Assembly: GCA_018241505.1 (NCBI GenBank)
Contig: JAFEDS010000010.1
Location: 124,001-188,000 of the forward strand
Source of the DNA: Pseudomonadota bacterium
GTDB taxonomy: Bacteria > Pseudomonadota > Gammaproteobacteria > Steroidobacterales > Steroidobacteraceae
Direction: 5' to 3'
DNA length: 64,000 nt
The notes under the pieces are model-generated. The model worked only from the letters and a program-made list of their open reading frames with translations. It had not been told where the DNA came from and did not search any database. Below, one piece after another: positions 17,126 through 27,681 of the stretch (the first letter of the stretch is position 1; each line of letters starts with the position of its first letter). The translations under genes were made by a program, and so were the position numbers.

Positions 17126-18460
17126 CTAGCCCTTGAAGCGCTCGCTGTGGACGCTTTCAGCGCTCTGCAGTCGGCTGATCAGCGAGCTCAAGAACACCCG
17201 GTTGAACCGCAACTGGCACGACGCCGACACCTGTTCCAACAACGTCGAGCTGACCTTCAGCACCGTCACGTCGCTGGCCGAGCGAATGGTCGCCGTACGC
17301 TTGGCGCCCTGTACATAGCTGGCCTCACCGAAACAATCACCCGTTTCGAGGGCTCCGATCCGCGTTCCGTGCCGTTCAACGGCACAACTTCCCGACACGA
17401 TGATGTAGAACCGATCGTCCATCTCGCCTTCCTTGACGATCTCCTCACCAGCGTCGTAATCCTGCCAATTGCTTGCGCGCAGCACTTCCCAGATTTCCGC
17501 GTGTGAAAACTCGTGGAAGAACTTGAGCCGCCGCAATACGCCGAACTGCTCCTGGCGATCGATTCGCGCATTCGCCTCGCGCAACCGTTGGTGTACGCGT
17601 GTCAATTCCGCGGCGAAATCGAGCCCGCTCTTGTAGCGCTTGGCCGGATCCTTCTGCAGCGCCATCGCCACCACGGTCTCGAGCTCTTCAGGAATCTCTT
17701 TGTTCAGTGTGTGAATCGGCGGCGGCGTTGCATACACAATCTGATGCAACAGCTTCTGCAGATTGCCGGCGCGGAACGGGCGCGAGCCGGTCAGGAGCTC
17801 GTACATGACGGCTCCCAGCGAATACAGGTCCGACCGGTTGGTGAGATCGAGACTCTGCACCTGCTCGGGCGACATATACGAAGGACTACCGGCGATGCCT
17901 TCGATGCGCGAGATGTCGGAGTCGGACACCAGCGCAATCCCGAAATCGATGATTCGCACGTCGCTATCCTGCGTAAGCATGATGTTCGACGGCTTGATGT
18001 CGCGGTGAATCACACCGCGTGAGTGCGCGTAGTGCAATGCCTTCGCGCACTTGAAGATGATTTCGACCGTATCGTCGATGCGCAGCAGATTGTCAGGGCG
18101 GCAGTAGGCAGCGAGCGTGCGTGCGCCATGCACGTGCTCCGTCACGATGTAGCAGTGGCCGCTCTCTTCACCCGCGTCGTAGATCGGGAGGATGTGAGGG
18201 TGCTGCAGCATTCCGACGAGGTGCGCCTCTGAGAGGAACATCTTTCGCGCAATACGCGCGCGCTCCTCATCACCGCCCGTGTCGCTGTTGTAGACCTTAA
18301 TGGCGACGTCGCGGCCATAGTAGGCGTCATGTGACAGGTACACCGTACCTGTACTACCGCGGCCGACCTCCTTGATCACCACGTACTTGCCGATCTTCTC
18401 GGGAATCTTCCGTGGCGGGGTCGACTTCGGGGCTGCTGATTTGGATGCCGGTGCTGACAT
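17126..18460 (-). CDS. Ser/Thr protein kinase fused to a cyclic-nucleotide-binding domain
   Basis: A 444-aa soluble Hanks-type kinase. Residues 25-285 form the kinase: glycine loop EVGRGSTGTVYL, Lys55 in VAIKVY, catalytic HRDIKPSN (152-159), DFG (172-174), and GSPSYMSPEQ in the activation segment, so all key residues are present. A short helical linker (LTRVHQRLREANARIDRQEQF) leads to a cNMP/CRP-like domain (about 315-430) with EIVKEGEMDDRFYIIVSGS and the phosphate-cassette-like GDCFGEASYVQGAKRTATIRS. The start at ATG 18460 is preferred over a GTG at 18484; neither has a strong Shine-Dalgarno. No membrane segment is seen. Cyclic-nucleotide or redox gating of the kinase is inference. It follows thiL on the same strand. 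Confidence 0.9.
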   Translation of the reverse strand: MSAPASKSAAPKSTPPRKIPEKIGKYVVIKEVGRGSTGTVYLSHDAYYGRDVAIKVYNSDTGGDEERARIARKMFLSEAHLVGMLQHPHILPIYDAGEESGHCYIVTEHVHGARTLAAYCRPDNLLRIDDTVEIIFKCAKALHYAHSRGVIHRDIKPSNIMLTQDSDVRIIDFGIALVSDSDISRIEGIAGSPSYMSPEQVQSLDLTNRSDLYSLGAVMYELLTGSRPFRAGNLQKLLHQIVYATPPPIHTLNKEIPEELETVVAMALQKDPAKRYKSGLDFAAELTRVHQRLREANARIDRQEQFGVLRRLKFFHEFSHAEIWEVLRASNWQDYDAGEEIVKEGEMDDRFYIIVSGSCAVERHGTRIGALETGDCFGEASYVQGAKRTATIRSASDVTVLKVSSTLLEQVSASCQLRFNRVFLSSLISRLQSAESVHSERFKG

Positions 18461-19546: not shown

Positions 19547-20332
19547 CTAGTGTTCGCTGGGCCGCAGCTTGCGTGCGGCCCGATCGAGCACTGCGTTCAC
19601 AAACTTGTGCCCGTCGGTCGCTCCGAAACGCTTCGCCAGCCCAACCGATTCGTTGATGGCCACGCGATAGGGGACTTCGGGCCGTGCGGTCAGCTCAAAG
19701 AGCCCGATCAGGAGCACCGCATGCTCAACGGGATCGAGCTGCGCCACCGGGCGGTCCATCAATTCGGCCAGCGACCCGTCCAAGGACTCGCGGGCGGCCC
19801 ATACGCCCTCAACGAGCTCGCGGAAATACTCGCGATCCGCATTGGCCATATCTTCGGCTTCGCCGAACTCCTGCACGAGGTCTTGCCAGGGGCTGTCGTT
19901 GAGCTGCCAGCGGTAGAGGGCCTGAAGCGCCAGCTTGCGGGCGACGGAGCGGGTAGCCGCGAAGGCGTGCTTGGCCCTTGAAGACGTGGACGATGGTTTA
20001 GCGCTGGAGGGTGACGACGGCTTCGCGCGGATCTTTTTTGCGGGGCCCTCGTGATGCGCGTGCGCGCCATGACGAGTGCCCTCGGCCTCCGCAGACCCAG
20101 TCGCATGCGCGGCACTCGGCTCGACGCCTCCCTGCGAGACACCCTCGGCATGTACGCCCTCAGCCGCCCGCGCGTTCGCCAACGCGGTGCTCAGCGTCGT
20201 GCCTGTCCACACCGTGCTGGGGTCAAACTCCTGCGCCTCGCCCCCGCTCACACCAGCCCGTGCCGGCGTGATCTTGCCGGCAACTACTTTGAGGGTCGTC
20301 CGTTCCCGCATTGTTTTGGGCCGGTCGCTCAC
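19547..20332 (-). CDS. nusB: Transcription antitermination factor NusB with long N-terminal extension
   Basis: NusB binds boxA RNA with NusE (S10) in the antitermination complex of rRNA operons. The all-helical core runs from about residue 129 (VARKLALQALYRWQLNDSPW, then YFRELVEGV and PYRVAINESVGLAKRFG) to the end. Before it are about 128 extra residues, low-complexity and rich in Ala, Gly, Ser and Lys/His, where most NusB proteins (about 140 aa) have nothing. The GTG at 20332 overlaps the ribH stop by 4 bases, and no ATG or GTG suits the core start, so the extension appears to be translated. Its function is unknown. Confidence 0.92.
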   Translation of the reverse strand: MSDRPKTMRERTTLKVVAGKITPARAGVSGGEAQEFDPSTVWTGTTLSTALANARAAEGVHAEGVSQGGVEPSAAHATGSAEAEGTRHGAHAHHEGPAKKIRAKPSSPSSAKPSSTSSRAKHAFAATRSVARKLALQALYRWQLNDSPWQDLVQEFGEAEDMANADREYFRELVEGVWAARESLDGSLAELMDRPVAQLDPVEHAVLLIGLFELTARPEVPYRVAINESVGLAKRFGATDGHKFVNAVLDRAARKLRPSEH

Positions 20333-20810: not shown

Positions 20811-21992
20811 TTAACCATCCTCACCAACATAGCTTTCGATTTCGAGATCGAACGCCGAAATACCCTGCAACTGACGAGGTGCCGACAGCACCTTCATGCG
20901 CCTGACGCCAAGATCTTTGAGGATCTGCGCTCCAACGCCGTATGTACGCAATACTCCGCCTACGGGCTCCGGCGGTGGGGCCAATGGCTGCGCCGCCAGC
21001 ATAGGACCATTCGCCTCGCCCAACGCGCGCACGGCATCAACCAAATCTCGCGGCGACTCGTGGTCGCGCAGAATCACAATTACACCACTTCCCGCTTGGG
21101 CAATGCGCTCCATAGCAGCGCGCAGCGTCCACGCACGCGTAACCGATCGGACGCCTACGAGGTCGCGAAGTGTGTCGGCGACATGCACGCGAACCAGCGG
21201 GACCGTCGAATCCGTGACAGGGCCATGCGTAAGCGCCAGATGAACATCCCGCTGGACATGGTCTTCGTACATGTACAAGCGAAATTCACCAAACTCTGTT
21301 TGTACGTTCTGCTCCGAGATTCGTTCAACCGAACGCTCATTCCGCAGGCGATAGCGGATGAGGTCGGCGATAGTGCCAATCTTCAGGTTGTGTGTTCGGG
21401 CAAACGTTTCCAGCTCCGGCCGGCGAGCCATCGTGCCATCGTCGTTCATGATCTCGACAATCACCGCCGCGGGTTCGAAACCCGCCAGGCGCGCCAAATC
21501 ACAGCCCGCCTCGGTATGGCCCGCGCGGGTCAACACCCCACCGGGCTGCGCCATGATCGGGAAAATATGCCCCGGCTGGCGCAGATCCTCGGGACTCGCG
21601 TTAGGCGCCACCGCCGTTCGAACAGTGTGCGCACGATCGTAGGCAGAGATACCGGTCGTGACGCCCTGGGCCGCCTCAATCGACAGGGTAAAGTTGGTGC
21701 GCCGCTCGCGATCGGTTTCGCTGACCATCAGCGGTAGTCGCAACTGACGGCAGCGCTCCCGGGTCAACGTCAGGCAGATCAGGCCTCGGCCGAAACGAGC
21801 CATGAAATTGATGTCTTCAGGCCGCACCAGGCTGGCGGGCATCAGCAGATCGCCCTCGTTCTCACGGTCCTCATCGTCCATGACCACGACCATGCGTCCC
21901 GCACGCAGCTCCTCGAGGATCTCTTCAACGGAGTTCAAGCCCGGAGTGGTGCTGGTGGGCCCCTTGCCGGTGATGGAGAAAACGTTGGACAT
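20811..21992 (-). CDS. ribBA: RibBA-type protein: DHBP synthase with degenerate GTP cyclohydrolase II domain
   Basis: The N-terminal half (about 1-210) is 3,4-dihydroxy-2-butanone 4-phosphate synthase: [35 protein letters not shown], and [30 protein letters not shown], with all family residues. The C-terminal half resembles GTP cyclohydrolase II, but the zinc ligands are gone: where RibA has the three-Cys segment ending CDCG, this protein reads [22 protein letters not shown] cyclohydrolase II activity is therefore unlikely, and a separate RibA is probably elsewhere. ATG 21992 matches the family N-terminus and is preferred over one at 22025. It has its own promoter region, since island DNA separates it from ribE. 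Confidence 0.92.
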
Positions 21993-22021
21993 GTCGCTGC
22001 CTGGAAAGGAATGTGGTGCCG

Positions 22022-22048
22022 TCATTATACGGCTGTATTTTTATACAG
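22022..22048 (-). promoter_or_regulatory. ribBA promoter region with a LexA-box-like palindrome
   Basis: A perfect -10 hexamer TATAAT (22024-22029 read leftward) lies 31 bases before the ribBA ATG. Four bases upstream of it is CTGTATTTTTATACAG (22033-22048), which fits the gammaproteobacterial SOS box CTGT-N8-ACAG with an AT-only core. The palindrome would fill the promoter spacer. SOS control is inferred from the sequence only. Confidence 0.5.
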
Positions 22049-22113
22049 ACCGCCCTTTGAATGCAGCCGACGCCAGCTTGCACCCATTACCCGCCCCGCA
22101 GCCGGGCTAACCA

Positions 22114-22224
22114 GTGCCTGCGGCCAAGCCAACCGAACCGGTGCCTGCTGGGGCGAGGCCGACGAGTGCCTGCGGCGGCGAGGCGCCGACCAGTGGGGGC
22201 GAGCCGCCAGTGCCTGCGGCCGGT
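22114..22224. repeat. Degenerate GC-rich repeats between the RES gene and ribBA
   Basis: GTGCCTGCGGC or a close variant recurs at 22114, 22141, 22166 and 22210, with a diverged copy (GTGGGGGCGAG) at 22193, a period of about 25-27 bases. The 514-base gap 21993-22506 holds no gene I can support; this repeat and the ribBA promoter are its only recognisable contents. No FMN riboswitch pattern was found in it. Confidence 0.5.
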
Positions 22225-22506
22225 CGCGGGCTCGCGCTCCGCTGCAAAGCAATGCGCCGCATACCACAGCTCCGCAAGAAACCAACGCAATCGGCATTCC
22301 CTGCGTCAATCGCTGGAAGTTGAAAATAACATCTAACATGTCGGATTGAATTCGCACTTCCGGCGTCACCGCCTCGCTCCAAGCCTCCGAGAGCCTTGCT
22401 CGATCACAAAACTGTATTTTCCGGATGAGGCCTCAACGAATCCTTTGCACTGTTGTTTCAGCGTACGTAGTCGGCGCCCGATTCCTACGGGGTCCGCACA
22501 AATAGC

Positions 22507-23232
22507 TCACTCAGAGTCTATCGATAGTTCCTGCGGGTCTCCAAAGTCCACAATTGCATTCGCTCGCCTCGCTTCGCGGCGAAGCAGATCGCGGACCGGG
22601 TTGTCTCTCACTGAAATCGCGTCGTCGACCGGCTCAAACATAGTCATACCGTCTTGCGCGAAAACTATGATGCAATCGCCCGGCACCTGGTGGGATTCGT
22701 ATAAGAGGCCGCGCATCTCCGGTATGTGATCGAGCAATCGCTGCGCCCAGCAACGTGTCCGGCCGTATTGAGAATGGGGCGCAGAAGATAAGCGGGGTGA
22801 GTGCTTTCCTTCAGCAACGAGATTTTCGACCTGCGGGCGACGGATATCGGCAACCAACAGGGGCTGCAGCAGCCGAGCCTCGATCAGGTAGCGATCGCGA
22901 GTTTCGTGCTCCGGAACTCGGCGCATGCCTTTGTGGCGGATGTCACGCAGTACGACCTCCCATGCTACTGTCTCAGGACGATCGCCCGCGTAAGCTGCCG
23001 GAACGATGACCCCCGATTTGTGCACAGGGCTGAATCGGTTGTTGACCACTGATGGATAGCAAACTCGGGCGTATTCGCCGGCTTCGTGTGCCGAATCGGC
23101 TCGCAGGATCCGATACCACCGGGAGCCGGGCGCCAACTCATGCTGAAGAAGTCCGTCTCGCCAGGCATTCAGCGCAGCGGCGAGATCTTCATCGGTGGGC
23201 AGGTCGAGGTAGAGCGGGTCAGTCGCGACCAT
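22507..23232 (-). CDS. RES-domain toxin of a RES/Xre (MbcT/ParT-like) toxin-antitoxin system
   Basis: A 241-aa RES-family protein. Family members degrade NAD+ or ADP-ribosylate targets, and expression without the antitoxin stops growth. The motif set is present: GSRWYRI near residue 36, NNRFSPVH (the conserved Arg and Ser), ETVAWEVVLRDI with the conserved Glu, and the C-terminal LLYESHQVPGDCIIVF. It starts 14 bases inside the preceding antitoxin gene, the usual order for this class. It lies in accessory DNA that splits the riboflavin operon. Whether it is active is not known, but the frame is intact. Confidence 0.85.
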   Translation of the reverse strand: MVATDPLYLDLPTDEDLAAALNAWRDGLLQHELAPGSRWYRILRADSAHEAGEYARVCYPSVVNNRFSPVHKSGVIVPAAYAGDRPETVAWEVVLRDIRHKGMRRVPEHETRDRYLIEARLLQPLLVADIRRPQVENLVAEGKHSPRLSSAPHSQYGRTRCWAQRLLDHIPEMRGLLYESHQVPGDCIIVFAQDGMTMFEPVDDAISVRDNPVRDLLRREARRANAIVDFGDPQELSIDSE

Positions 23233-24103
23233 TCCAACGTTCCGTGTTGGCAGCTTTGATCACGTTCCGGCGATCAGCTTTCCAGGCTTGAAGCGGCGTG
23301 CTGCCCTTCAGCGCTTCGTGCGGTCGCAGGAACCATTGCAGCCGATCCCATCCTGGAATATCGGGGGACAATGCGGTGAGCACGTCTTTCATCTCTGGAT
23401 ATACGCGGCCCGTTGCATCGAACTGGAACGTGGGGTATCGCCACTCGCGACCCCAACGGACTCCAAACAATTTGCCGCTGCCACGCTGATCCGCTGCGAG
23501 CTGACTCGAATTTGTGGTGGTCGACTGGGCTGCAAGGGCGAGGTCCTCACTACTCAATGTGCCGCCGGCCTGCTGGAGCATGTCTTTACGAACGCGCATG
23601 AGCTCTTCACGGTCCGATCCTTCCCCGGCGCCGGGGATCTGATGTGCTGTCCCATTCGCAGACGAGCGAGTGTCAGTTAAGCGACGCAACACCTTCAAAC
23701 CCGTATCGAGCCGGGTTCGGAAATCTTCGGTCAGGCGGATCACAACGATCGTCTGGCCAGCCAGGCGTTGAGCTGCTGTTTGTACTGAGCTGGCGAGTTC
23801 CTCGCGCTGGATCGTCTCTTGTAGAAGCAACTCGTTTGCACGCTCAGCAAACACGAGCCACGGGTCAGTGCGTCGGTGCGATTCCAGCAGCGAATGGAAT
23901 ACGTCCCACTGGGATAGAAATAAATCAAACAGGCGTTCGGCATTTCCTGTGCCGGGAGGCGCAAGCGTAATGGCGGCCGGATCCTCTTTCAGGAAGGTGG
24001 TCAATTGCCTGCGTGAGTAGGCCGCCGTGCGGAGCTCCGGCGCGTCCTGCTGCTCCAAAATGGCGCTGAGCAAATAGGTGGATTCCAGCGAGCGAGCTTC
24101 CAT
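23219..24103 (-). CDS. RES-associated antitoxin (MbcA/ParS type) with long N-terminal region
   Basis: A 294-aa likely antitoxin. Its last 130 residues fit the Xre/MbcA/ParS class: an HTH-like LSSEDLALAAQSTTTNSSQL, then KLFGVRWGREWRYPTFQFD, and the toxin-binding part IPGWDRLQWFLRPHEALKGS with TPLQAWKADRRNVIKAANTE. The first 165 residues are unusual; they are charged and helical with no recognised domain (for example AERANELLLQETIQREELASSVQTA). AAGGA precedes the ATG at 8 bases. It overlaps the RES gene by 14 bases. Four 8-bp repeats in its leader suggest autorepression. The N-terminal region could be a second regulatory module or the remains of a fusion. Confidence 0.75.
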   Translation of the reverse strand: MEARSLESTYLLSAILEQQDAPELRTAAYSRRQLTTFLKEDPAAITLAPPGTGNAERLFDLFLSQWDVFHSLLESHRRTDPWLVFAERANELLLQETIQREELASSVQTAAQRLAGQTIVVIRLTEDFRTRLDTGLKVLRRLTDTRSSANGTAHQIPGAGEGSDREELMRVRKDMLQQAGGTLSSEDLALAAQSTTTNSSQLAADQRGSGKLFGVRWGREWRYPTFQFDATGRVYPEMKDVLTALSPDIPGWDRLQWFLRPHEALKGSTPLQAWKADRRNVIKAANTERWNGRD

Positions 24104-24110
24104 GACAATA

Positions 24111-24147
24111 ATCCTTAATTTCTTAGCCTCTTAGTATCTTAACTATA
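24111..24147 (-). promoter_or_regulatory. Toxin-antitoxin promoter with four 8-bp direct repeats
   Basis: Leftward, TATAGT (24142-24147) is a good -10. It is followed by TTAAGATA, CTAAGAGG, CTAAGAAA and TTAAGGAT back to back (24142 down to 24111), four 8-bp repeats of consensus YTAAGRNN, running to the Shine-Dalgarno. Upstream is a small inverted repeat, CCGAC tatt GTCGG (24154-24167). An iteron-like operator bound by the antitoxin is the simplest reading. The local sequence is much richer in A and T than its surroundings. Confidence 0.6.
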
Positions 24148-24286
24148 CCACCACCGACTATTGTCGGCCTTCGCCGATTATCTTTAGATTCAGGTAGTTA
24201 CGGCCTGTATACCGCCCGGATCAGTCGTCGGCGACTCCTGCGAGTCCCAGCCGTGCAAGGCGATCGATCAGGGGACGCCGATGGGT

Positions 24287-24559
24287 TTACGCCGGATTCC
24301 CGCCGGGGTCCGGTACTTTGATGCCGGCGACGCGCAAATGAAGCTGATCGCGCAGGCGAGTGAGATTGGGATGCCGTAGGTTCTGCCGTTCGACCGCTCG
24401 GGCCGTATCAGCAATCGCATCGGGAAACGCGGTCATATCGCGAATTCGTTGTACCAGTGCGCCGGTCGGTATTTTCAGGGATTTCGCGGCATCGCCCCAA
24501 TGCCGTGGCTGAATCGTCTGCAGCTTGTAGTGCCGCCCCACTCGCATCGCCAAGGCAGG
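24287..24559 (-). pseudogene. C-terminal fragment of a HipA-family kinase toxin
   Basis: About 90 codons (LAMRVGRHYKLQTIQPRHWG, then AKSLKIPTGALVQRIRDM) resemble the C-terminal end of HipA toxins, which phosphorylate glutamyl-tRNA synthetase. The kinase domain, its catalytic residues and the whole N-terminal part are missing. The fragment begins at the very point where the truncated yhcG-like gene loses homology, in another reading frame, so the two are joined by a deletion. No ribosome site is evident; this is most likely a dead remnant. An internal ATG at 24553 could open an 88-aa frame. Confidence 0.6.
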
Positions 24560-25149
24560 CCCAGAGAGTCCACGAGGTAGCTGTCTTTGAAGATGGCGTC
24601 AGCATCCGGGTGCAATTGTGTCACCGCCGGTGACACTTTTGGCCGACCCAGAACAGCGCGTTCGAAGAGTGCACCGCGCAGTTGCCGGTCCGTTTCACGC
24701 TTATCCCATCCTTCCCGATGGGCGAGACGCAAATAGAATTCTCGCTCTTCTGACGACTTACACCGACTGAGTATGAGGAGGTTACCGCTCCAACTAACAT
24801 GTCGTACCAATGGCGCTGCAGCTTTGTGGTCCTTGTACGCATCGTAAAACTGCCGCATGCGAAACAGGTTGCGGCGTTCGAATCCGCGAAGATCCGAATG
24901 ACATCTCGAAATGTAACGCGCCAACTGGTCAACGACACCCTCACCCCAAATGGATTTTTGGAGCTTCTGGCTTATGTATCGGCCTACTTCCCAATAGAGA
25001 GTGACCAGGCTCGTGTTGACCGCCTGCAGAGCGCGTTGGCGCGCGCCGCGGATTAGATCAACAATCTCGCGAAATTCTGACTCACGCTCATGCATATCCG
25101 GCGCCTTCCCTGCCGCTCGGTTGACCAGGTCACGTCTCTTGATCTTCAT
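24553..25149 (-). pseudogene. Truncated YhcG/DUF1016-family protein (PDDEXK nuclease lost)
   Basis: The open frame starting at 25149 encodes the N-terminal helical region of YhcG-type proteins: IVDLIRGARQRALQAVNTSL, VTLYWEVGRYIS, GEGVVDQLARYI and LFRMRQFYDAY, then the central VSWSGNLLILSRCKSSEERE and ERAVLGRPKVSP. Homology stops at DSYLVDSLGLP (residue 199), where a complete protein would run on into the PDDEXK nuclease. Beyond it the frame reads about 25 unrelated residues to a stop at 24475, because the DNA there is a hipA fragment in another frame. The nuclease domain is lost, so the gene is probably inactive. Confidence 0.75.
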
Positions 25150-25429
25150 GAATCAACAGTGAAGTTGCATTTTGAGCGTTCAATCCTGTTCGCATTATAG
25201 ACCCAACGACTCTAGGTGAAAATCCACGAGCACGGTTGTTCGTAGAACGATGTAGTTTCTCATGTTGATACCAGATGCCCGAACCACGCGTGTGAACCAC
25301 GGTGAGACTCATGGGGGACGCGGACGTGAGAAGCAGGGAGTGCATCCACTACGGTTGTTGGGTGATCGAGGCAGGCCCCCGATACATTCAGGCTCGCCAC
25401 GGGAGCATCTTGCGCCGCTCGGGTAGATA

Positions 25430-25506
25430 CCCCGCCGCCTTGCGCGTGGCGCTCCCGCGTGCTTATCGCGCGGTTTCGCGTGCCGGATTTTCGTATCCGT
25501 GAGCAT
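25430..25506 (-). pseudogene. N-terminal remnant of a P4-type tyrosine recombinase
   Basis: From ATG 25506, MLTDTKIRHAKPRDK matches the arm-binding N-terminus (DUF4102) of P4-family island integrases. Past it the frame is lost: the expected DGGGLYLLV-PSG stretch survives only as pieces in different frames around 25390-25440. The remainder of the gap 25150-25623 holds no other gene I can support. The remnant lies between the end of ribE and the island genes, where an integrase is expected at an island edge. Confidence 0.6.
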
Positions 25507-25623
25507 GACGGCATTCGTGACGGTATGGGGCTCCACGAACCGCAACCGTCACCGATCCCGTCAAACTTTTCTGAATGCCAGTGAACGATGACGCACGGTG
25601 GTGCGCCATCGTTTCCTGAAGAG

Positions 25624-26247
25624 TCAAAGAACTACATAAGACGAGCCAACATTGGAGGACGCGCACAGAAGCCGCTCGACGTAGCGCGCTACCTGGTCAA
25701 TTTCGAGGTTCACGCGCGCGCCTACCGTCAGTCGGCCCAGCGTAGTAACAGCCTGCGTGTGAGGAATGATGTTGACGCCGAATTCGTTACCGTCGACTTC
25801 GTTAACCGTCAGACTGACACCATCGACTGCGACTGAACCTTTGCGCGCGATATAGCGAGCGAGGTCAGCCGGAACCGAAATTCTGATTCGTTGCGAGCGC
25901 GCGTCACCGCTGATTGCGGTCACCGTGGCAACTCCGTCTATGTGGCCCGAGACGAGATGGCCACCCAACGCATCGCCAGCTTTTAATGACGGCTCGAGGT
26001 TCACCGGCGTTCCATCGCGCAGATCGCCCAGAGTGGTTAGATTTAGAGTCTCGCGAGACACATCGGCCGCGAACGCCTTTCCAAGAAGCTCCGTAGCCGT
26101 GAGGCAGCAGCCCTGAACGCAGATGCTGTCCCCGATGCGGATTCCGCTGGGATCCAGGCGATCGAATTCAATGACCATTCGAACATCGCCACCGCGGGCT
26201 TCCAGCTTCTGCACGCGACCGACGTCTAGAACTATTCCAGTGAACAC
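25624..26247 (-). CDS. ribE: Riboflavin synthase, alpha chain
   Basis: Dismutates two 6,7-dimethyl-8-ribityllumazine molecules to riboflavin. It has 207 aa with the two tandem lumazine-binding barrels: MFTGIVLDVGRVQ, GDSICVQGCCLTAT and SRETLNLTTLGDL with GGHLVSGHIDGVATV in the first; ARYIARKGSVAVDGVSLTVNEV and NIIPHTQAVTTLG in the second. The C-terminal tail after VARYVERLL (about 13 residues, ending SSYVVL) is not typical and may have been altered by the insertion that follows. In related genomes ribBA comes next; here about 3.6 kb of accessory DNA intervenes. Confidence 0.95.
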   Translation of the reverse strand: MFTGIVLDVGRVQKLEARGGDVRMVIEFDRLDPSGIRIGDSICVQGCCLTATELLGKAFAADVSRETLNLTTLGDLRDGTPVNLEPSLKAGDALGGHLVSGHIDGVATVTAISGDARSQRIRISVPADLARYIARKGSVAVDGVSLTVNEVDGNEFGVNIIPHTQAVTTLGRLTVGARVNLEIDQVARYVERLLCASSNVGSSYVVL

Positions 26248-26283: not shown

Positions 26284-27681
26284 TCACTTCGGACGCAACC
26301 GCAATCGCAGATCATCGCCGAAGCGTTTCGCATCGAACAAGGAGAAACCCCAGGCGTCCTGTAGCGATTGCAATTCCGGAAGATTCACGAGCGGACGGCC
26401 CTGCGGCCCGAGCAACTTCGGCGCTACGTACAGCAGCAACTCGTCCACAAGGAAAGTGGTGAGCAATTGACCGGCCAGCGTCGGACCTGCTTCGACGAGG
26501 ACCTCGTTCACTTCCATCTCGCCCAACTTCTTCAGGACCGCGGGCAGGTCGAGGTATCCGTCATCGGACGGGACTTCTTCAATTCGCACGCCTTTTCCGG
26601 AGAGCGCCGCCCTGGGGACCCGGAAGTCCGCGGGCGAATCGGACTTCGCAGCAGTCGACTCGACAGTGCTGGCCTGCGCAGAAGGCCTGCGGTCCACAGG
26701 GATCGCGCCACTCAATGCGGCACCGGCCCATGTTGCGTCATCGGCACTGGGCGCAACACCGGAGACAGAATTCTGATCGGGCGGCTCCGCAGATGCCGCG
26801 GCGAAAACAACCACCGGTCCAGCGCCAGGGTCAGCTCCACGGCCCGCACCACCGTCCACGCCCGCAGCAGCAGCACCGCCCACACCCGCAGCACCGCCCA
26901 CACCCGCAGCACCGCCCACACCCGCGCCACCGCCCACACCCGCACCACCGCCCGCGCCAACACCACCCCCAAACACCTTAGCCCCCACCGGACTCCGCAA
27001 CCGCGCGTCCAACACCACCCGCAGGGGCTGCCGCCCCTTGAACCCGGCCGCTCGCACATTCAACTGCGGATCATCGGCCAACACCGTGCCAACGCCTGTC
27101 ATGATTGCGGAGCAGCGGGCGCGCCAGCGTTGGACATCGGCGCGTGCGGCTTCGCCGGTGATCCACTGGCTGGCGCCGTTGGCCAGCGCCGTGCGGCCAT
27201 CGAGGCTCATGGCGAGTTTGACACGCACCCAGGGCAGGCCATCCTTCATGCGCTTCATGAAGCCGATGTTGAGCTCGGTGGCTTCGTTTTCCATGAGCCC
27301 CGCCTCGACAGTCATACCGGCGCGAAGCAGAGCATCAGCGCCCTGCCCACTCACACGAGGATTGGGATCCTGAACAGCAAACACAACACGCGCGATGCGC
27401 GCTTCAATCAACGCATTGACGCAGGGAGGGGTTCGGCCGTGGTGGCTGCAGGGCTCGAGGGTGACATAGGCCGTTGCCCCCGCAACAGGCTCCTTCGCCG
27501 AACGAAGGGCCATCACCTCGGCGTGCGGCTCACCTGCGCGTTCATGGAAGCCTTCGCCAATGATGCGATCGCCCTGGGCGATAACACATCCAACCCGCGG
27601 GTTGGGATGTGTCGTTTCCAGGCCGCGCTCGGCGAGCGCCAAGGCCTGAGTCATTGCGAGTCGGTCGAACTCAGTGAACAT
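26284..27681 (-). CDS. ribD: Bifunctional riboflavin deaminase/reductase RibD with low-complexity insertions
   Basis: Carries out the deamination and then the NADPH reduction of the pyrimidine intermediate in riboflavin synthesis. The deaminase domain (1-145) binds zinc through H53AE, Cys78 and Cys87 (LEPCSHHGRTPPC). The reductase domain has VKLAMSLDGRTALANGASQWITG and NEVLVEAGPTLAGQL. It is 465 aa where about 370 is usual. One Gly/Ala/Val repeat (about 238-288) and one Ala/Ser/Pro-rich stretch (about 297-355) are inserted on either side of the strand GPVVVFAAAS in the reductase domain. Both probably form loops. Lies 31 bases after nrdR and 36 before ribE. Confidence 0.93.
   Translation of the reverse strand: MFTEFDRLAMTQALALAERGLETTHPNPRVGCVIAQGDRIIGEGFHERAGEPHAEVMALRSAKEPVAGATAYVTLEPCSHHGRTPPCVNALIEARIARVVFAVQDPNPRVSGQGADALLRAGMTVEAGLMENEATELNIGFMKRMKDGLPWVRVKLAMSLDGRTALANGASQWITGEAARADVQRWRARCSAIMTGVGTVLADDPQLNVRAAGFKGRQPLRVVLDARLRSPVGAKVFGGGVGAGGGAGVGGGAGVGGAAGVGGAAGVGGAAAAGVDGGAGRGADPGAGPVVVFAAASAEPPDQNSVSGVAPSADDATWAGAALSGAIPVDRRPSAQASTVESTAAKSDSPADFRVPRAALSGKGVRIEEVPSDDGYLDLPAVLKKLGEMEVNEVLVEAGPTLAGQLLTTFLVDELLLYVAPKLLGPQGRPLVNLPELQSLQDAWGFSLFDAKRFGDDLRLRLRPK
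26827..26970 (-). repeat. 18-bp tandem repeats inside ribD
   Basis: The plus strand shows repeated CCGCCCACACCCGCAGCA and variants, best conserved at about 26877-26960, encoding GVGGAA-like hexapeptides. The unit is a multiple of three, so copy-number change keeps the frame. It looks like a coding minisatellite. Confidence 0.75.

Follow-up and report, generated by a model that had tools for sequence, protein, structure and literature searches.

The window analysed here is a stretch of 64,000 nucleotides from a Steroidobacteraceae contig, and its minus strand carries the genes glyA, nrdR, ribD, ribE, a 3.6-kb spacer, ribBA, ribH, nusB and thiL, in this order. The subject of this study is the spacer, which lies between the end of the riboflavin synthase gene ribE (25624) and the likeliest start of ribBA (21992), both on the minus strand, and the mobile element whose traces it appears to hold. 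In order of transcription, the spacer contains an integrase remnant and a truncated DUF1016 gene with a HipA tail, and then the genes of an antitoxin and a RES toxin, which overlap. A sequence-only reading of this DNA had claimed a toxin-antitoxin pair, a yhcG-hipA fusion and an integrase remnant in the roughly 3.6 kb between ribE and ribBA, and Pfam and tblastn searches confirm these assignments, the integrase traces being short. The features are as follows:

20811..21992, minus strand: ribBA, with a leader closest to those of the relatives L032/L033 and a RibB domain of a lineage other than its genus
22024..22029, minus strand: likely ribBA -10 box, TATAAT, at the position of a genus-wide TATACT box
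22033..22048, no strand: predicted LexA-type operator CTGTATTTTTATACAG, of the form CTGTATN4ATACAG, three bases before the TATAAT box
22507..23232, minus strand: RES-domain toxin (PF08808, E 9.9e-13)
23219..24103, minus strand: antitoxin with an Xre/MbcA/ParS-like C-terminal part
24287..24553, minus strand: HipA C-terminal remnant, in another frame than the DUF1016 open reading frame (ORF; tblastn best E 2e-5)
24475..25149, minus strand: truncated DUF1016 (YhcG-type) gene (PF17761, E 1.4e-38; PADLOC PDC-S02, E 1.3e-63)
25397..25438, minus strand: possible integrase C-terminal end AAGYLPERRKMLPW, in another frame, matching residues 365-378 of the integrase of G003, a genome of the same genus (22.3 bits)
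25462..25506, minus strand: integrase remnant, first 15 codons MLTDTKIRHAKPRDK, with its best match (27.7 bits) to the L130 integrase
25518..25563, minus strand: integrase arm-type site array, TGACGG-N6-TGACGG ... CCGTCA, the same as before the ribE-linked integrase of G003
25624..26247, minus strand: ribE, riboflavin synthase (PF00677, E 1e-50)

Integrase traces next to ribE and an intact element in G003

Positions 25150-25640 of the window were searched for integrase sequence with tblastn; the 32 integrase entries used as queries include the G003 gene three times. The N-terminal remnant lies 117 bp after ribE, on the same strand as in G003, and its 27.7 bits compare with 26.6 for the best of 200 shuffled sets. 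The window holds no intact integrase, only this N-terminus and a possible C-terminus, hence the term remnant. The piece AAGYLPERRKMLPW is counted, less surely, as the integrase C-terminus for its place and order alone; if this is correct, about 350 integrase codons were lost between the two pieces.

The integrase start is preceded by an array of short motifs, namely TGACGG, a second TGACGG 12 bp on and an inverted CCGTCA, which the window and G003 have in common with the same order, orientation and 12-bp spacing. Arm motifs were counted before 32 other P4-type integrases (six further ones were left out, their upstream DNA being too short): none has at least two and three have one; at least three motifs occur in 3/1750 random 150-bp stretches. 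The pattern common to both loci, which was built from them and thus speaks for rarity, matches two of the 396 genomes of the order, in both cases adjoining ribE; a slightly looser pattern, run on 369 class genomes that do not include G003, finds that of the window alone. The spacers from ribE to integrase of the window and G003 align with a score of 26 (best of 2000 shuffles, 24; best other integrase, L135, 23). In the viral contigs searched, neither the arm pattern nor ribE found a match, and the integrases of these contigs are at most 35% identical; the best phage integrases among the matches listed reach 38% identity.

The G003 locus (L112, contig JAJZDX010000009.1) carries a complete P4-type integrase gene starting 143 bp after ribE, with the domains PF13356 (Arm-DNA-bind_3), PF22022 (central) and PF00589 (catalytic). 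Its ribBA lies 14.1 kb from ribE, the insert amounting to about 14.0 kb, and the element genes include a primase, an AAA ATPase, a serine resolvase, a ParB-like protein and a terminase, which points to a prophage-like or satellite-like element. Near the integrase gene (L112 4867-6074) there are also direct repeats of 63 bp (three copies) and 66 bp (four copies). When compared with the empty site of L041, the left side of L112 (2924-3499) corresponds to L041 8001-8576 (531/576 identical), and the right side (17532-17760) to L041 8557-8787 (195 identical, 31 mismatched and 8 gap positions). The two homologies overlap by 20 bp in L041, inside ribE, at the codons for ARYAER, and the identical 20 bp are obtained from L039. 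This overlap is the attachment (att) site, and the left and right copies of the G003 element (attL and attR) are thereby defined against empty sites. The junctions demonstrate that the element entered inside ribE and replaced its last codons, leaving the old ribE 3' end beside ribBA.

In the window, positions 25672-25691 correspond to this 20-bp site, as read from the sequence, and the ribE 3' end is there the predicted integration target; the window element may have used the same crossover point as that of G003. The window ribE is 85% identical to that of L033, and DNA homology with L033 on the ribE side stops at 25667. On the right, homology to the window resumes at 22004 for L033 and at 21993 for L032, just before the ribBA start. 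In L032, one of the two genomes nearest by ribE, the ribE-ribBA spacer is occupied by a cytochrome P460 gene, and the L033 spacer is equally long. The window has probably lost attR and the old spacer through a deletion. The check proposed with the sequence-only reading, an uninterrupted relative together with a duplication at the junctions, succeeds in G003 against L041 and L039 but fails in the window, where there is no right att copy. Two candidates were set aside in this respect: a 17/20 repeat between ribE and the DUF1016 gene, which is located inside the DUF1016_N coding stretch and is within chance by a rough estimate, and the L123 gap, with two ribE-like peptides separated by 24 bases.

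The window RibE tail, CASSNVGSSYVVL, is probably element-derived. The same earlier reading had considered the C-terminal tail atypical; in the relatives read, RibE tails after VERLL vary from locus to locus and that of the window falls within the normal range, and therefore the tail was rejected as island evidence by itself.

The spacer in related genomes and its surviving genes

The ribE-ribBA spacer was surveyed with the places of both genes among the matches listed, 188 of the 217 family genomes being matched for each gene; one ribBA place came from a separate search, and the 109 genomes with both places, minus six with the genes on different contigs, left 103 to be counted. The spacer is at most 200 bp in 67/103 genomes and longer in 36, exceeding 1 kb in 28. 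The supposition that ribE and ribBA are normally continuous thus stands for the family but not for the genus of the window, where a spacer of at most 200 bp is found in 3/17 genomes and a longer one in 14/17. In another genus, g25, none of nine spacers is 200 bp or shorter, and all nine counted (L165, L167-L169, L171-L174, L188) measure 1 to 10 kb.

These lengths are what would be expected if the spacer were simply a tolerant site in which any gene lands by ordinary recombination, the toxin-antitoxin pair of the window having arrived without site-specific integration. The content of other gaps agrees with this, as a Pfam scan of the 102 proteins encoded in 26 other large gaps gives 100 families, of which the 25 commonest have metabolic, redox, transport, signalling or surface roles, and so do the window integrase traces, which are short and in part no better than chance. 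We nevertheless consider this explanation unlikely, because the arm array at ribE recurs in an intact element linked to ribE and in no other of the 396 genomes, and the integrase N-terminus is at the expected place and strand. The other large-gap loci were also considered as mobile elements, and this was discarded, since the integrase profile found none besides G003.

With regard to the remaining spacer genes, the DUF1016(YhcG)-HipA arrangement is a deletion fusion. The HipA piece finds by tblastn four plasmid records at E 0.01 or better, three of the places being annotated as HipA.

The antitoxin and RES genes are taken, from their sequences and arrangement, as a RES-Xre toxin-antitoxin pair. 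The window antitoxin itself has no Pfam match; at E 1e-10 it occurs in five of the 217 family genomes, in full length only in the window and with its C-terminal part in the other four, and all four homologues are directly upstream of a RES-domain gene. Among these homologues, Xre_MbcA_ParS_C is matched by L211 (25.6 bits; cut-off 24.5) and, below the cut-off, by L210 (16.1 bits), the other two being without match. The toxin residues R66, E92 and S180 do not vary among five aligned proteins, and we take this R, E, S set to be the conserved triad of the RES domain. The pair is a candidate for an active module, in which the toxin would deplete NAD and the antitoxin would neutralise it. An ancestral family-wide arrangement, with the same genes intact at this place and no uninterrupted form, is not what was found: at this threshold the full-length antitoxin is restricted to the window among the 217 genomes, and uninterrupted forms exist.

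The ribBA gene and its upstream region

A longer ribBA ORF, from 22025, starts on top of the TATAAT box. TATACT or TATAAT precedes ribBA in 27 of the 32 rows compared, which comprise 30 of the genus plus L047 and L049; the control gave 22/6000 random stretches. Five rows were scored negative, of which two, L112 and the window, do have the box, the start used by the script being too far upstream, and L115, L047 and L049 are without it. A box conserved to this extent suggests that ribBA has its own promoter and is independent of ribE.

The predicted operator directly upstream of this box may place ribBA under LexA control. The form CTGTATN4ATACAG is present at two places in the 7.88 Mb of the genome, before ribBA and at G000:C4:427043-427058. 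The second palindrome is followed after two bases by a putative DNA modification/repair radical SAM gene (rSAM_link_UDG; TIGR03916, 565 bits), and is also upstream of a divergent gene. The lexA gene of the window genome has CTGTATGCAAGAACAG just before its start, which the ribBA operator resembles. Of the 141 stretches upstream of ribBA that were compared, some genomes contributing more than one, only that of the window has such a box; the loose form CTGTN8ACAG occurs in two others, with unrelated sequence. The operator could have come with the element or arisen by point mutation, either origin being compatible with the data. The open-licence full texts searched contain no report of a LexA-controlled ribBA. 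Further upstream, between the RES gene and ribBA (22105-22220), a 20-bp unit, GGCTAACCAGTGCCTGCGGC, is found in three imperfect copies.

The ribBA gene has a history of its own. Compared in 40-residue steps over residues 41-200, the RibB domain (21426-21905) shares 72-100% identity with five proteins from other genera; with three proteins from its own genus the identity is 35-70%. In the ribBA tree the window falls outside a 100/100 clade of 28 other genus rows plus L047 and L049; the ribH tree places it with L032/L033 (support 94/89). Separate domain trees agree with the other-genus placement for RibB and give no resolved placement for RibA. It might be proposed from this discordance, and from the closeness of ribE to that of L033, that the foreign segment extends through ribBA, the element or one later exchange having brought a new ribBA too. 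We regard this as improbable, less plausible still than a merely tolerant spacer, since L032/L033 are the closest match both for the leader codons and for the DNA surrounding the start, and only the RibB domain is clearly of another lineage; for the same reason, ribBA in its entirety was dropped as possible island cargo. A separate exchange inside ribBA is simpler, and the RibB-domain replacement is read, on sequence grounds, as a second mosaic event, distinct from the putative insertion at ribE.

Two neighbouring genes also have unusual parts. There is a Gly/Ala/Val-rich insertion in ribD at 26800-27000, where the matches of relatives stop (whole protein, 465 aa), and nusB (19547-20332; 261 aa) has a long N-terminal part unmatched in relatives.

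Proposed history of the locus and known systems

The locus is probably best explained as a decayed mobile element with a P4-type integrase at the 3' end of ribE, of which the toxin-antitoxin pair has been kept. This is the mostly decayed island, with its toxin-antitoxin module retained, that was proposed from the letters alone, and it fits the remnants, the arm array and the G003 element. Its foundations are observed features: the gene remnants, the array common with an intact ribE-linked element, the G003 junctions against two empty sites and the box before ribBA.

Several points weigh against it. The integrase N-terminus of the window is only slightly over shuffled sequences, the 22.3 bits of AAGYLPERRKMLPW fall below every one of the ten best shuffles, which reach at least 24.6, and are equalled by other rows, and a profile from the 32 integrase entries gave no match to the window remnant at E 1. 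The arm pattern, drawn from the two loci that it recovers, is no independent test. A displaced ribE 3' end (attR) was looked for in the window and none is left, which makes integration there an inference. There is one intact case, the integrase profile having matched a ribE flank in G003 alone, and both the G003 contig and the empty-site relatives are metagenome-assembled. Finally, mobile-element families are absent from the 25 commonest in the 26 other large gaps. An assembly or binning error that joined unrelated pieces could be suspected from the 46 contigs and the estimated contamination of 5.67% of the 7.88-Mb assembly; it is very improbable given that the window belongs to a 677-kb contig with the gene order of the genus on both sides, and that the G003 case is independent.

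Under the decayed-element explanation, an element with a P4-type tyrosine integrase would have entered ribE at its last conserved codons (VARYVER region). By supplying a replacement 3' end it would have allowed RibE to remain functional; the new tail presumably keeps the enzyme active. The insertion would have been tolerated because ribBA has its own promoter in this genus. During decay, most of the integrase would have been lost, the DUF1016 and hipA genes joined by deletion, and the right end removed as far as a point shortly upstream of the ribBA promoter, the displaced ribE end going with it. The RES toxin-antitoxin pair would have survived, as expected of a module whose loss is costly. 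More broadly, the ribE 3' end is the target of elements with this integrase, which provide RibE with a new tail; G003 shows this, and the window element would have done likewise. A further extension, according to which an element lineage uses ribE as its site, supplies RibE C-termini and, through decay, leaves behind the toxin-antitoxin pair and an SOS operator that puts ribBA under DNA-damage control, is tentative.

The new point is the ribE 3' end as an integration site, established in G003 and proposed for the window. If true, a conserved metabolic enzyme gene would join the protein genes that serve as integration sites, with a defined 20-bp site and an integrase that are both testable. It would also help to explain the variable ribE-ribBA spacer in this genus, and would provide a possible route for a decayed element to alter the control of a vitamin pathway, the SOS operator being the most open lead. 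No report of ribE as an integration target was found in the open-licence full texts searched; in the available parts of two of them, ribE is a phylogeny marker (PMC8190616) or does not appear (PMC12884075).

Three kinds of described systems come closest. P4-family satellites and islands have integrases with Arm-DNA-bind_3, Phage_int_M and Phage_integrase domains, whose genes adjoin the target gene and are transcribed away from it, and they have a primase gene. The G003 element has an integrase with the same domain set, next to the target gene and reading away, as well as a primase gene. Unlike 16 of 29 related integrases (L130-L158), which have a tRNA gene at most 600 bp upstream, the ribE-linked one is at a protein gene.

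RES-Xre systems such as MbcTA consist of a RES toxin and an Xre/MbcA/ParS-like antitoxin that is encoded first, the genes overlapping. The window pair is similar to MbcTA and, as far as the accessible part of its description goes, to NatR-NatT (PMC11535050), with a RES toxin, the antitoxin first and overlapping genes, and differs from both in the long N-terminal part of the antitoxin, without Pfam match. SGI1-group elements, in the available portion of their description, integrate at the 3' end of trmE or yicC (PMC8409611). Here the target is ribE, and the G003 element has a terminase, a primase and a resolvase (SGI1 marker genes were not sought); in common with the SGI1 group, it is an integrative element using the 3' end of a conserved protein gene (PMC8409611).

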